A stretch of DNA of 35,321 nt from Anaerolineales bacterium. GTDB lineage: Bacteria; Chloroflexota; Anaerolineae; Anaerolineales; Villigracilaceae. Below the pieces are notes generated by a model that saw only the letters and a list, made by a program, of their open reading frames with translations, searched no databases and was not told the DNA's origin. The DNA is taken from contig CAKKRM010000001.1 of assembly GCA_919902735.1 (NCBI GenBank), forward strand, positions 96,100 through 131,420. Reading direction: 5' to 3'. The position numbers and the translations under genes were made by a program. Positions 6,177-35,321 of this stretch are shown piece after piece (positions within the stretch are counted from its first letter, which is position 1; each line of letters starts with the position of its first letter).

Positions 6177-8054
6177 TCAACCAAAGAACGCAAGCTCATT
6201 ATTGCTAATCGTACTAACTAACACAGCTCGATCTAAATATCTATTCCCTTTTTCACATGATGTTTCGGGAGCAAAAGTACAAGCATGACAAGCTGCAGCG
6301 TGAAGAGTTGCATTACCATATTCAGGACGGTGTTCTGAGCAAGTAGGATCAGAGGTACATAACGTTGCACTTTCCAAAGCAACTTCAATATGATGTCCTA
6401 ACGATTCTGGAGTTCCTAAATTCACCAAACCTCCAAGTGTTCCTTCACTATCTGGGGCAGATGTGTAGAGCAAAATACCAGCCATTGGGCCACCATCTAC
6501 TTCGGGATTGCGTGAGTAGATTCTTTCTCGAATACTAGCCTGTGAATAACCGCATTCAAGGACAATTTGTCTCATCAGGATATGGCTGAAGGTATGAAGG
6601 AGGATATAGCGCATTCCTGGAAAGTTTGCAGATGGATTTTCGAAGTTGCGCGCTTTACGCCATTCCATATGAGCATTTAAGAAAAAACGTTCTTGTTCCT
6701 GTACTTCTGGTTTTGCAAGCCATGTTTGGATTTTAGCTTCATCAAATTGGATAAAAATACCTTCACCTCGTACTTCGACTGCGGGCACCCAATTTATTTT
6801 AGAACGACTTAATGGAACAGCATCAATCCTTTGTTCTTCATCTGAATCGTCCAATTCGCCAGGCGAATCAATTCGAGTAAACCCTGCCAGGGCTTTGACT
6901 TCCCTCAGACGATCTGCCAGGACAACTTTTGATATTAACAATCTATATTTGTCAGGAGAAGATACTTTCCTGAGTTGAAAATCTGCCGATCGTAGTTGTT
7001 CGTTCCCTGATGAAAATGCAGTCCATTCAGGTAATAGCAAATCTGGATATTGTTCGGATTCTTCGCTTGGAATTCCAGTATCTCTCTTACTTTGAATTAC
7101 CCCCCAAATTTCTTCAAGTGGGTACTCTGCCAAAGCTTTTAACTGACCTGTTTTCTGGGCAAACTTAAGAATATCAAGACTGGTGATTTCATTTAGTACA
7201 CTCCAGTGATCATCGACCAAAACAGATAACTTATCCAATGTTGCAGGTATGGCAATTGCGCTCATTACTTGAGGAAACCACAAATTTGAAGCGCCTAAAA
7301 GGATGGGTCGCATATGAAGTTCGCACCCATCGGGATCCAAATCGTGCAAGTGAGGCCTTCTTGCAGAACAAATGGGTAATTTCTCGCGGTTGTCCCGTCC
7401 AAATGCCTCTGCCATCTGACGCCGATTCCCGCAGGTATCGCAATGAATAAACAGATCACGCGCTTCACCAGACGGACCATATTCTTGCAGAGTTACACTT
7501 GAATTTCCTGAACAAGGTTTTTCACCAAAGGAATGAACAAAATCTATCCAGGGAAAATCATCCAAATGACCCTTTTCGCAAGCCACAAGAAAACGGGCTG
7601 GTAATACTGTTGGTGGTTTTTTTGCACGAGGACAATTGCTGTGGACATAGCGAGTGCGGTCTGGATGATACATATCTGGTCTGAGTTCAAAGAACCCAGC
7701 TTCTACTGAAGCAAGCGTTCGGCATGAAGGGCAAACCATCCACTTTGGAAATGTTCCCACAGGTACGCCGATCAAAGATTCCTGTTCAAAAGGATTCGGG
7801 GATTGATCTGAGTTAGTTGGCAGGGAGTACATACGTTGAATATGATGACCCACCGCAGATTTTAAACCAATCAGAAGACGATCTTCTTTGATTTCACGGA
7901 CATAGTTTGGATCCTGTGTCCAGTCATCCAATCCAGAAACGATAACCGAAATTTGAGGTAAATCTACAATTGCCCCGACGCCAAAGCTATACAGCAACTG
8001 ACTCGGATTGAGTTCTCCCACACGAAAGTGGTTAGGGTGATTGGTGTTTTTCAT
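6177..8054 (-). CDS. drmB: DISARM protein DrmB (DUF1998 family, 625 aa)
   Basis: DrmB partners with the helicase DrmA in the core complex of DISARM, a defence system that acts on incoming unmodified DNA. The N-terminus has the family's RVGELNPSQLLYSFGVGAIVDLP-type opening. A cysteine pair CPSC lies at 108-111, with further CDTC at 205-208, suggesting zinc binding. The C-terminal part is the DUF1998 region with a cysteine cluster (about residues 558-596) containing ACHACTFAPETSCEKGNRYLD. Its ATG overlaps the drmA stop as ATGA, so translation is coupled. The length is usual for the family. It is the last gene of the operon, where drmC would often follow. Confidence 0.88.
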   Translation of the reverse strand: MKNTNHPNHFRVGELNPSQLLYSFGVGAIVDLPQISVIVSGLDDWTQDPNYVREIKEDRLLIGLKSAVGHHIQRMYSLPTNSDQSPNPFEQESLIGVPVGTFPKWMVCPSCRTLASVEAGFFELRPDMYHPDRTRYVHSNCPRAKKPPTVLPARFLVACEKGHLDDFPWIDFVHSFGEKPCSGNSSVTLQEYGPSGEARDLFIHCDTCGNRRQMAEAFGRDNREKLPICSARRPHLHDLDPDGCELHMRPILLGASNLWFPQVMSAIAIPATLDKLSVLVDDHWSVLNEITSLDILKFAQKTGQLKALAEYPLEEIWGVIQSKRDTGIPSEESEQYPDLLLPEWTAFSSGNEQLRSADFQLRKVSSPDKYRLLISKVVLADRLREVKALAGFTRIDSPGELDDSDEEQRIDAVPLSRSKINWVPAVEVRGEGIFIQFDEAKIQTWLAKPEVQEQERFFLNAHMEWRKARNFENPSANFPGMRYILLHTFSHILMRQIVLECGYSQASIRERIYSRNPEVDGGPMAGILLYTSAPDSEGTLGGLVNLGTPESLGHHIEVALESATLCTSDPTCSEHRPEYGNATLHAAACHACTFAPETSCEKGNRYLDRAVLVSTISNNELAFFG

Positions 8055-33821: not shown

Positions 33822-34720
33822 AGAGTTGATAGGGCGTATGGTGAGATGAAATTCTTTTCGAAGCACAGATGTTGGTATCCACATTTCTTGCATATTGAGG
33901 GCTGACGTATGGCATTTAGCGGAGGATGCGGTCCATTCTTTGCCAGATTAGATAGAGACTGAACCACGCGTTCCAAATCCTTATCCGAAAGAGTCTGGTC
34001 GAAATGGTTTGTTTCACCAGTTTCACGATCGAGGGCAAAGACCGTTGGAGTATTTTGCCAGGGTCGATTGTCGGATGAACTGCAGCGTTTCATTAGGGAG
34101 AAGCGCAATTGATCCTGTTCCATGCTGGAGACCATCAACCCTATTTTGGTTTCCATAACATGACCTACCGGGACCTTCCAAACCCAGGCATCGAATTGGA
34201 CGGGTAATCTTGTGAATGGCAGGGTCAAAAGGAGCTTTTCACCCGAAAGGATGTAACCTGCATCACGCTCGATCCTCATTCCAATTCTCCAATCCTGTGA
34301 AAGGAATGCCCAAGTGCGGATATAGATGAACAGGTTTCGCCAATCTCCGCCAAGATGGTTGATCGCATTCTGGGAACCAAAGCGGCGACCAGCGGGTATC
34401 TTTCCGCCGCGAAATAATGGCATGAGTTCCGGAGCCTGCATGGGATGATGGGAACGGTATTCCTCCACTTCTCGAATGTAATTTCGGATTTCATCCACAA
34501 GCCCATCAAAGCCGTATTCCACGAGGTACTCCAACAGTGTTTTTCCGGATGCCAAATCTTGCATCGATTTCCAAACCGGATCGAAAGCCGGAGTTGGGTC
34601 TGCGCCCGCTAGCCACCAGCGCGCCGCAGAAGGGCAGAAGGAGTACAGCATCGCTGACAGGATCGGATGTCCGCGTGCGTTTCCACGATTGAGAAGGGCA
34701 TAAAAAAGATCAGTGTACAT
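33818..34720 (-). CDS. Cas4-like PD-(D/E)XK nuclease with an Fe-S cysteine set (300 aa)
   Basis: Counted from the ATG at 34720, an N-terminal cysteine C29 lies in SFCPSAARWWL. The nuclease core has D177 in VQFDAWVW and E190-x-K192 in VMETKIG, followed by a Q-rich helix EQDQLRFSL. The C-terminal cluster is C277, C280 and C286 in SICKKCGYQHLCF. One cysteine before and three after the core is the Fe-S pattern of Cas4 and RecB-like nucleases. It has no CRISPR genes around it. It overlaps the preceding peptidase gene by 11 bases and the TrbL gene by four. A GTG at 34759 would add 13 residues. It may trim transferred DNA ends, but this is inferred. Confidence 0.6.
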   Translation of the reverse strand: MYTDLFYALLNRGNARGHPILSAMLYSFCPSAARWWLAGADPTPAFDPVWKSMQDLASGKTLLEYLVEYGFDGLVDEIRNYIREVEEYRSHHPMQAPELMPLFRGGKIPAGRRFGSQNAINHLGGDWRNLFIYIRTWAFLSQDWRIGMRIERDAGYILSGEKLLLTLPFTRLPVQFDAWVWKVPVGHVMETKIGLMVSSMEQDQLRFSLMKRCSSSDNRPWQNTPTVFALDRETGETNHFDQTLSDKDLERVVQSLSNLAKNGPHPPLNAIRQPSICKKCGYQHLCFEKNFISPYALSTL

Positions 34721-35105
34721 ACCAGCACAATAGAATAAAGGGGATGGTTCGCCATGCACCGGGAGTCAAAGATTTGGTAGGTGATTGTTTTCCTGCCATT
34801 CGCCAGAGGATTTGAGCAAGACCGGTGATAAAGAATGACACAAACATAATTAAAAGAACCTGTGATGAAAACTCAACAGGCAAAGCCCATAACAATGCAA
34901 TCCATAGTTTGGCATCGCCTGCTCCCATCCAATCACTTGCCCAGGCCGATAACAAAGCAAAACTGGCAAGCCATACATCCAAATGGCCTGGGAAGTGCGC
35001 AACCATTCCCGCGATGAGCAACGGAAACGTATACCAGTTCGGAATACGCCGGGTACGCAGGTCGTACAAGCTGATGGCAATAACGTAAATGAACAACCAG
35101 ATCAT
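34710..35105 (-). CDS. Prepilin peptidase A24, second copy (131 aa)
   Basis: A small polytopic membrane protein with both catalytic aspartates of the A24 family in canonical form: D15 in YDLRTRRIPNW and D64 in MGAGDAKLW. It lacks the N-terminal methylase domain and zinc motif of full-length PilD, like archaeal and Tad-type peptidases. It is the first gene of the secretion operon and precedes the Cas4-like gene. Its job would be leader cleavage of pilin-like substrates. No strong ribosome binding site is visible. Confidence 0.75.
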   Translation of the reverse strand: MIWLFIYVIAISLYDLRTRRIPNWYTFPLLIAGMVAHFPGHLDVWLASFALLSAWASDWMGAGDAKLWIALLWALPVEFSSQVLLIMFVSFFITGLAQILWRMAGKQSPTKSLTPGAWRTIPFILLCWYVH

Positions 35106-35168
35106 CGGTTGTTCATCATATAGGGATTAATATGCGGGTATGTGGGACGTGTCGGTATAAAATAAGCG

Positions 35169-35193
35169 ACAGCCATCCTTGACGGATGGCTGT
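35169..35193. repeat. Perfect 10-bp inverted repeat around the -35 element
   Basis: Arms ACAGCCATCC and GGATGGCTGT enclose the five-base loop TTGAC, which is itself the core of a -35 hexamer. On the - strand it lies between any upstream gene and the secretion operon and could act as a weak terminator there; on the + strand it would be promoter DNA. Confidence 0.55.
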
Positions 35194-35206
35194 TCATTGC
35201 TATAAT
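35179..35206 (+). promoter_or_regulatory. Near-consensus extended -10 sigma70 promoter
   Basis: TTGACG (35179-35184), a 16-base spacer and TATAAT (35201-35206) match the consensus at 11 of 12 positions, and TGC directly before TATAAT adds an extended -10. The predicted start is near 35211-35214. It reads rightward, away from the secretion operon, straight into two hairpins. Confidence 0.7.
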
Positions 35207-35210
35207 GTTG

Positions 35211-35263
35211 GTTGCAGGGTGCCCCCCTCACCCTGCAACAGCCGCCGCAAGGCGGCTGTTTTG
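35211..35263 (+). ncRNA. Candidate small RNA with two hairpins
   Basis: Downstream of the strong promoter, stem 1 pairs 35211-35221 with 35229-35239 (11 bp) and has the loop CCCCCCT. Stem 2 pairs 35238-35246 with 35251-35259 (9 bp) around GCAA and ends in TTTT, like a terminator. The two stems share two bases. The transcript would be about 50 nt with a C-rich loop able to pair with G-rich ribosome binding sites or with an antisense partner. No known RNA family is recognised. Confidence 0.45.
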
Positions 35264-35279
35264 TCTATGTAACTAAACC

Positions 35280-35308
35280 CATAAAGTGGCCGCTTTGGCC
35301 ACTTTATG
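35280..35308. repeat. Perfect 12-bp inverted repeat at the right edge
   Basis: Arms 35280-35291 and 35297-35308 are fully complementary over 12 bases around a five-base loop. No T-run follows on either strand, so it is not an obvious terminator. It may be part of a control or transfer region that continues past the window. Confidence 0.5.
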
Positions 35309-35321
35309 CTTCCGGACCACA

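Follow-up and report, generated by a model that had tools for sequence, protein, structure and literature searches.

Introduction

6C RNAs are defined by hairpin loops with six or more C's, two such C-loop hairpins per RNA, and belong to a phylum different from that of the Anaerolineales. Short hairpin RNAs are also found on mobile elements, RNAI and FinP among them, and antisense RNAs of this type pair with a transcript from the opposite strand of the same place. The mycobacterial RNA B11 has two C-rich loops that repress eccB4, whose 5′ UTR contains six G's, with repression lost only when both loops are mutated; mycobacteria are said to have no identified chaperones such as Hfq or ProQ (PMC10470900). 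The double-hairpin RNAs of Burkholderia (ncS03, ncS05, ncS27 and ncS62) are 57–92 nt long with CU-rich unpaired stretches and three to five homologues per genome (PMC5688073). For Chloroflexus aggregans, a Chloroflexi-1 motif, RF01698, has been listed (PMC2864571).

In the literature covered, we found no paper on the core of the RNA described below or on small RNAs in Anaerolineae or Anaerolineales; most subscription papers lay outside this scope, and an earlier description is possible. The titles and opening lines of abstracts listed for RNA motifs, small RNAs and covariance models in Chloroflexi/Chloroflexota likewise contained nothing resembling this RNA. Small-RNA regulation in Anaerolineales therefore looks little studied.

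Here we analyse a locus at the end of a 35,321-nt stretch of an Anaerolineales contig (the whole stretch is referred to as the window). The initial annotation had placed a strong promoter and a double-hairpin RNA of roughly 50 nt at this locus and suggested an antisense or target-pairing role of the kind known from plasmid copy or transfer control.

Results

A predicted small-RNA gene at the end of the window

The features of the locus are as follows.

34710–35105, minus strand: type IV leader (prepilin) peptidase, divergent neighbour; its ORF starts at 35105, before the RNA
35179–35184, plus strand: −35 hexamer TTGACG, over the loop of an upstream inverted repeat at 35169–35193 (direct reading and promoter scan)
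35198–35199 and 35201–35206, plus strand: TG and TATAAT of an extended −10, TGC TATAAT (direct reading and promoter scan)
35211–35221 and 35229–35239, plus strand: two arms of the first hairpin, 11 bp, with loop CCCCCCT at 35222–35228 (direct reading and folding)
35220–35230, plus strand: core TG-CCCCCCT-CA, invariant in 48 of 48 alignment rows, which were picked by this core
35237–35260, plus strand: second, terminator-like hairpin with loop GCAA, running into TTTTGT, with compensatory differences in relatives
35212–35265, plus strand: predicted small RNA, its start placed about 7 nt past the −10 and its end at the T run
35280–35308, strand not given: palindrome, part of a dispersed repeat (repeat comparison)

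Direct reading and the scan recovered the promoter as initially described, an 11-of-12 σ70-type sequence with the TG of an extended −10. Its two hexamers are 16 nt apart, and the −10 ends 4 nt ahead of the 11-bp stem. The stem with its CCCCCCT loop and the terminator-like stem behind it were also present by direct reading, scan and folding. The 57-nt fold reached −34.7 kcal/mol, compared with −20.6 kcal/mol for shuffled sequence (z −4.4; 0 of 200 shuffles as good), and this fold together with conservation in homologues supports the predicted double-hairpin RNA gene of about 50 nt. Within the 57-nt fold the first hairpin pairs over only 9 bp, because both hairpins compete for shared bases; the 11-bp form appears with the sequence begun at 35211.

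Taken alone, the promoter lies at chance level (1 found versus a mean of 1.0 in shuffles of 34700–35321). The RNA-gene reading depends on comparison with relatives. The window copy matches our covariance model at 35206–35250 with 47.9 bits, the window sequence being itself a row of the model's alignment. It belongs to the two-hairpin copies but has a short stem, departing from the 16-bp rule of the family given below. A pattern search with up to two mismatches found the element to be single in its own assembly, and opposite the predicted RNA there is no ORF of 80 aa or more.

The surrounding region is rich in inverted repeats. One of them, ACAGCCATCC/GGATGGCTGT at 35169–35193, has the −35 hexamer over its loop and is largely kept in the related loci L004 and L005; it is a possible operator for divergent promoters or a possible minus-strand terminator.

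A 16-bp stem with a constant C-rich loop

To describe the family, 158 distinct copies were picked by an exact match to the 17-mer GGGTGCCCCCCTCACCC, so that the inner stem and the loop are constant by construction. Outside the 17-mer, 11 pairs are formed in 139–158 cases, with many pair types, while the 12th outer position is paired in 55 of 158 copies versus 52.7 expected, which is chance level. Pairing thus stops at the 12th position outside the 17-mer, and the typical stem measures 16 bp. At least nine of the 11 lower pairs are formed in 154 copies, the exceptions being L056, L057, L059 and L112.

Covariation was scored on two alignments. A diversity-picked subset of the 154 well-paired copies (44 rows) gave 0.789, compared with 0.177 for shuffled alignments and at most 0.171 for slid structures. 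The second alignment included core-variant relatives and comprised 48 rows, namely 43 of those 44 (L209 left out) plus L004, L005, L007, L008 and L010; it gave 0.805, versus 0.178 shuffled and at most 0.182 slid, with both sides changing in 13 of 16 pairs. In four relatives of the window copy (L004, L005, L007 and L008), the inner stem is partly swapped from GGG/CCC to CC/GG, with TG-CCCCCCT-CA unchanged. Stems and promoter are both conserved in homologues; the initial annotation had named a lack of such conservation as a refutation of its reading, which thus withstands this comparison.

We also read the hairpin at 30 divergent loci from divergent families of the order, two of which (L340 and L364) gave no reading because the match lay too near the contig end. 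The loop was C6U in 31 of 33 elements and C7U in the other two, in a reading that required a loop with at least four C's and 13 of 16 pairs, so that model and filter both favour C-rich loops.

Promoter-like sequences and 3′ endings of the copies

Promoter position was surveyed in 209 copies filtered on 12 of 14 pairs outside the core, a set in which only the drop in pairing past the 16th pair and the position of the promoter are informative. A −10-like hexamer lies 4–8 nt ahead of the 16-bp stem in 197 of the 209 copies, mostly at 5–7 nt; the same test moved 20 nt upstream was positive in 36 copies, and in shuffled sequence in 48. A −35 match accompanies the hexamer in 120 of those 197 copies, a count made without a control. 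Given the fixed distance of the −10, the expected transcription start is the first stem base or a position adjacent to it.

C-loop RNA genes also occur in tandem, about 120–175 nt apart (L337 at 1490–1850; G524, G544, G084 and G109). Each tandem copy has its own −10-like sequence in four sets (L337, with three copies, L343, L345 and L348).

The 3′ ends were surveyed in 181 copies out of a set of 183 filtered on pairing outside the core, the other two having no downstream sequence. Directly 3′ of the stem the sequence reads NTTT(A/T)(A/T), followed by little conservation. Most copies have one of two endings, a T run or a TTTAA tail, and these complement each other in where a further terminator is found. 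A T run follows the hairpin in 68 of the 181 copies, and a further terminator lies within 110 nt in six of these (1.0 expected in shuffles). A TTTAA tail is found in 91 copies, 45 of them with a terminator within 110 nt (0.2 expected in shuffles) and 46 with none over that distance. The other 22 copies have other tails, with a further terminator in eight (0.4 expected in shuffles).

The family is widespread in Anaerolineales

Of the 57 genomes of the genus, 54 contain the 17-mer GGGTGCCCCCCTCACCC with at most one mismatch, at 1–6 copies per matching genome; a reversed control pattern gave no match in the same 57 genomes. At the level of the family, 123 of 152 genomes, representing 24 of 26 genera, have the exact 17-mer. 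Scanning named genomes returned at least 119 matching stretches. Among these, 80 listed matches carry titles of Anaerolineae/Anaerolineales or plain Chloroflexi/Chloroflexota, the isolate Thermanaerothrix daxensis included, with the exception of two contigs of one MAG called Herpetosiphon sp. From the titles of the named genomes we infer that the order carrying the family is Anaerolineales.

A covariance model built from 48 copies had matches at E ≤ 1e-4 in 248 of the 301 genomes sampled from the order, and in 153 of 175 once the count was limited to genomes with a completeness of 90% or more and a contamination of 5% or less. Matching genomes of the order had 1 to 10 model matches each, numbers that are upper bounds, as one hairpin can match on both strands. 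Among the matches listed for a sample of the class were 19 of the 20 genomes belonging to the order and 2 of the 278 others; for a sample of the phylum, those listed comprised 24 of 25 order members and 4 of 276 others. This split was counted from listings that gave a minority of the unmatched genomes, nearest kin first. The matches outside the order were weak (E 7.0e-6 or worse), and one of them, in G367, has the right anatomy with the loop CCCCCCG.

Genomic neighbourhood, viral copies and a putative mobile element

In 122 of the 173 copies that have a next downstream ORF, this ORF lies on the opposite strand, and in 51 on the same strand; the RNA is therefore not a leader as a rule. Neighbours vary across the family. 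The commonest, convergent in 27 of 183 copies, looks like recN, a label based on the best NCBIfam match of a 50-residue N-terminal piece. A mechanically predicted ORF of at least 90 aa is overlapped by 23 of the 183 copies.

In the window, the RNA is next to the beginning of an oppositely oriented operon, as first noted, here the prepilin peptidase gene at 34710–35105 (minus strand). A prepilin peptidase is the neighbour in 6 of 10 loci examined. As this block recurs in several of the genus's species, where its outer flanks differ, and comes with a dispersed repeat, it appears to be a putative mobile element. The repeat is palindromic, TGTAACTAAACCCATA...GCCGCTTTGGC...TATGCTTCCAGA, and was found at 35280–35308 as well as in L004, L006, L007, L009–L012, L017 and L231; 9 of 11 distinct copies start 53–55 nt after the start of the C-loop core. 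It may represent a recombination or element-end repeat. Just past the palindrome, at 35321, the contig ends, and positions 34000–35321 had no match in the plasmid collection.

In IMG/VR, seven contigs predicted to be viral contain the 21-base search pattern. Full hairpins are present on the viral pieces L054, L055, L058 and L060 (E 5.1e-14 or better); L056, L057 and L059 match the covariance model in the inner part only. Large terminase subunits are encoded on L056, L058 and L060, phage-type methyltransferase/ParB-like proteins on L054 and L055, and only a regulator on L059. On L054 and L055 the next ORF is on the same strand as the hairpin.

Elsewhere in the window, a defence island at 6177–26466 encodes DrmB, DrmA, DrmMI and DrmD, followed by Lamassu-type LmuB, LmuC and a Cap4/LmuA-like nuclease (PADLOC and Pfam models). 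We take its Drm proteins to be DISARM class 1.

Comparison with known RNA families

No family of Rfam 15 reaches its cut-off within the window, and Rfam membership of the C-loop hairpin was rejected after scans of the window, of 16 relatives' loci and of L242 1450–1640. The 16 loci yielded only tRNAs and a tRNA-overlapping plastid model at E ≤ 0.1. The 6C model RF01066 (gathering cut-off 47 bits) had no match at E ≤ 10 in window 35140–35321 or L242 1450–1640, none at E ≤ 0.1 in the 16 loci and none at E ≤ 0.001 in 21 relatives; one of 14 control genomes gave a match, below the cut-off. RF01698 was absent among the Rfam matches in the window and in L242 1450–1640.

For RF02278, a toxic small RNA of Betaproteobacteria (cut-off 50 bits), there was no match up to E 10 in window 35140–35321 or L242 1450–1640. 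It was found in 1 of 21 relatives (G015) and in 0 of 14 control genomes. This match, L367 1501–1564 on contig 158 of G015, a genome of the window's genus, is a true RF02278 RNA without the C6U core, and the contig is probably a betaproteobacterial contaminant.

The Anaerolineales RNA resembles 6C RNA/B11 in being a small RNA with a C-rich loop in bacteria without known Hfq. The six or more C's of a 6C loop are present in the window copy and in all 33 divergent elements read (C6U in the window copy and in 31 of these, C7U in two). It differs in having one C-rich loop, compared with two in B11. With RF02278 and the double-hairpin RNAs it shares short length, two hairpins and several copies per genome (1–6 per matching genome of the genus by the 17-mer, though the window copy is single in its own assembly); RF02278, however, carries a CUCCUCC-type sequence in place of the C6U loop and has a separate model. 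Sibling copies sharing one pairing motif also characterise the Neisseria sibling sRNAs. Unlike these and other anti-Shine-Dalgarno sRNAs, whose pairing partner would be the ribosome binding site, the loop here has a complement, AGGGGGG, that differs from AGGAG and AAGGA, the common Shine-Dalgarno-like 5-mers of the lineage.

Sequence tests for targets of the loop

Hfq (PF17209) was found in 0 of 21 relatives, compared with matches in 5 of 14 control genomes. Complements of the loop were counted around the starts of 705 and 373 mechanically predicted genes, covering 0.8 and 0.4 Mb of two carriers (G042 and G048). At −40 to +10 of the predicted starts, AGGGGG occurred twice in G042 (2.7 expected) and twice in G048 (2.1 expected), and the commonest Shine-Dalgarno-like 5-mers in G042 are AGGAG and AAGGA. 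With no enrichment of AGGGGG and other 5-mers common, the idea that the loop generally pairs with ribosome binding sites, as the initial annotation had envisaged, was rejected. As the starts are mechanical and only 0.8 and 0.4 Mb are covered, a small set of specific targets could still exist. By analogy, target pairing via the loop is plausible.

Further upstream, at −100 to −40, GGGGGG occurred 19 times versus 2.4 expected in G048 and 3 times versus 2.5 in G042. The excess in G048 is largely due to poly-G ahead of three paralogues, probably encoding secreted proteins (L317–L336; about 222, 256 and 258 kb into the examined block), each of which has nine G's some 61 nt before its predicted start. 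We rejected this nine-G run as a target: it abuts TATATT, a possible −10, and may therefore be untranscribed. Within coding sequences, observed/expected ratios for AGGGGG were 0.35 and 0.53 in two carriers and 0.91 in a non-carrier. The corresponding ratios for its complement CCCCCT were 0.40 and 0.44 in the carriers and 0.94 in the non-carrier; this comparable depletion means that the shortage of AGGGGG carries no strand-specific signal. Avoidance of the loop complement on the sense strand was accordingly rejected.

Discussion

At the level of sequence comparison, our data demonstrate a gene with its own promoter, a defined structure, a constant loop and wide dispersal. Strong selection acts on the single loop of this promoter–hairpin–terminator gene. 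On balance, we favour reading the window feature as an order-wide, chaperone-independent, trans-acting C-loop sRNA that acts like actinobacterial 6C/B11. Its expression, exact ends, stability, pairing with mRNA and direction of regulation are parts of this reading that we infer. Each copy would be transcribed from its own σ70-type promoter, placed for a start at or near the first stem base, and the RNA would immediately form a hairpin of 16 bp (of 11 bp in the window copy) displaying the seven-base loop CCCCCCU. The RNA would end with that hairpin itself or with a second terminator hairpin, and a 5′ end hidden in the stem could render it long-lived without a chaperone. By base pairing with G-rich mRNA segments, the loop would then block these mRNAs or make them unstable, in the manner of B11 and its C-rich loops in a mycobacterium. 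With several copies in a genome, one active loop would come under different promoters, and the copies on phages and on the putative mobile element could feed into the same network. Against this reading stand the sequence tests, which yielded no target and no enrichment of loop complements at gene starts, the 46 of 91 TTTAA copies with no terminator within 110 nt, and the window copy itself, with its departure from the 16-bp rule and a promoter that alone is at chance level.

The main rival to pairing between loop and mRNA is a protein partner. A C-tract-binding protein, titrated or delivered by the RNAs, would bind the UG-CCCCCCU-CA cap that a rigid stem presents at a fixed length, with the mobile and phage copies serving as decoys. 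C-tract binders to be considered are proteins of the KH type or the cold-shock type, Rho, or an unknown one. The constancy of the loop and its two closing pairs in the 48 rows, although these were picked by core, combined with a varying remainder of the stem, the retention of loop and closing pairs in divergent families, the fixed 16-bp stem and the lack of enrichment of the loop complement at gene starts are all in line with such a partner, and the constant closing pairs U-A and G-C would fit protein recognition equally well. Nevertheless, we consider this explanation rather unlikely; B11, the closest-looking characterised RNA, acts by its loops on a G-tract mRNA (PMC10470900). Quite improbable overall, if strongest for the phage copies, is a role in cis at the 5′ end of operons, as a leader or an antitermination site. 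The promoter directly ahead of the hairpin, the same-strand ORFs that follow it in viral L054 and L055 and in 51 of 173 copies, and the possibility that TTTAA-type copies are read through would suit such a role, for which a put-like antitermination site is the model; against it stand the 122 of 173 copies whose next ORF is on the opposite strand, the 68 of 181 copies in which the hairpin is immediately followed by a T run, and the terminator within 110 nt in 45 of 91 TTTAA copies.

The plasmid- or element-type antisense RNA for control of copy number or transfer, proposed at the outset, drew on the double-hairpin size, the C-rich loop and the position next to a divergent operon on a putative mobile element. 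An order-wide family with one common loop is unlike RNAI and FinP, both models score far below their cut-offs (RNAI, RF00106, 16.2 versus 47 bits; FinP, RF00107, 15.4 versus 45 bits), and the strand opposite lacks an ORF of 80 aa or more, so we regard this proposal as very improbable. We hold equally little belief in the absence of any RNA gene, with the hairpin a plain terminator or DNA palindrome. Many copies do resemble intrinsic terminators, and the window region is rich in inverted repeats, but the one-sided promoter-like hexamer, which keeps a fixed distance and is present in 197 of 209 copies, speaks against it, and a constant loop is not expected of terminators.

Going beyond the trans-acting C-loop sRNA itself, we propose tentatively, and with more doubt than conviction, that Anaerolineales maintain a global, Hfq-free post-transcriptional network built on the constant loop UG-CCCCCCU-CA and a stem of measured length, and that phages and mobile elements took up copies to tap or titrate this network during infection or transfer. 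If the trans-acting reading is true, RNAs with C-rich loops would be known from one more lineage in addition to those of 6C and RF02278, and the copies on phages and elements would be a striking case of foreign DNA bearing the host's own regulatory RNA. With the family present in most sampled genomes of the order, a near-constant loop and no Hfq found in 21 relatives, these RNAs offer a tractable entry point that is testable in cultured strains.
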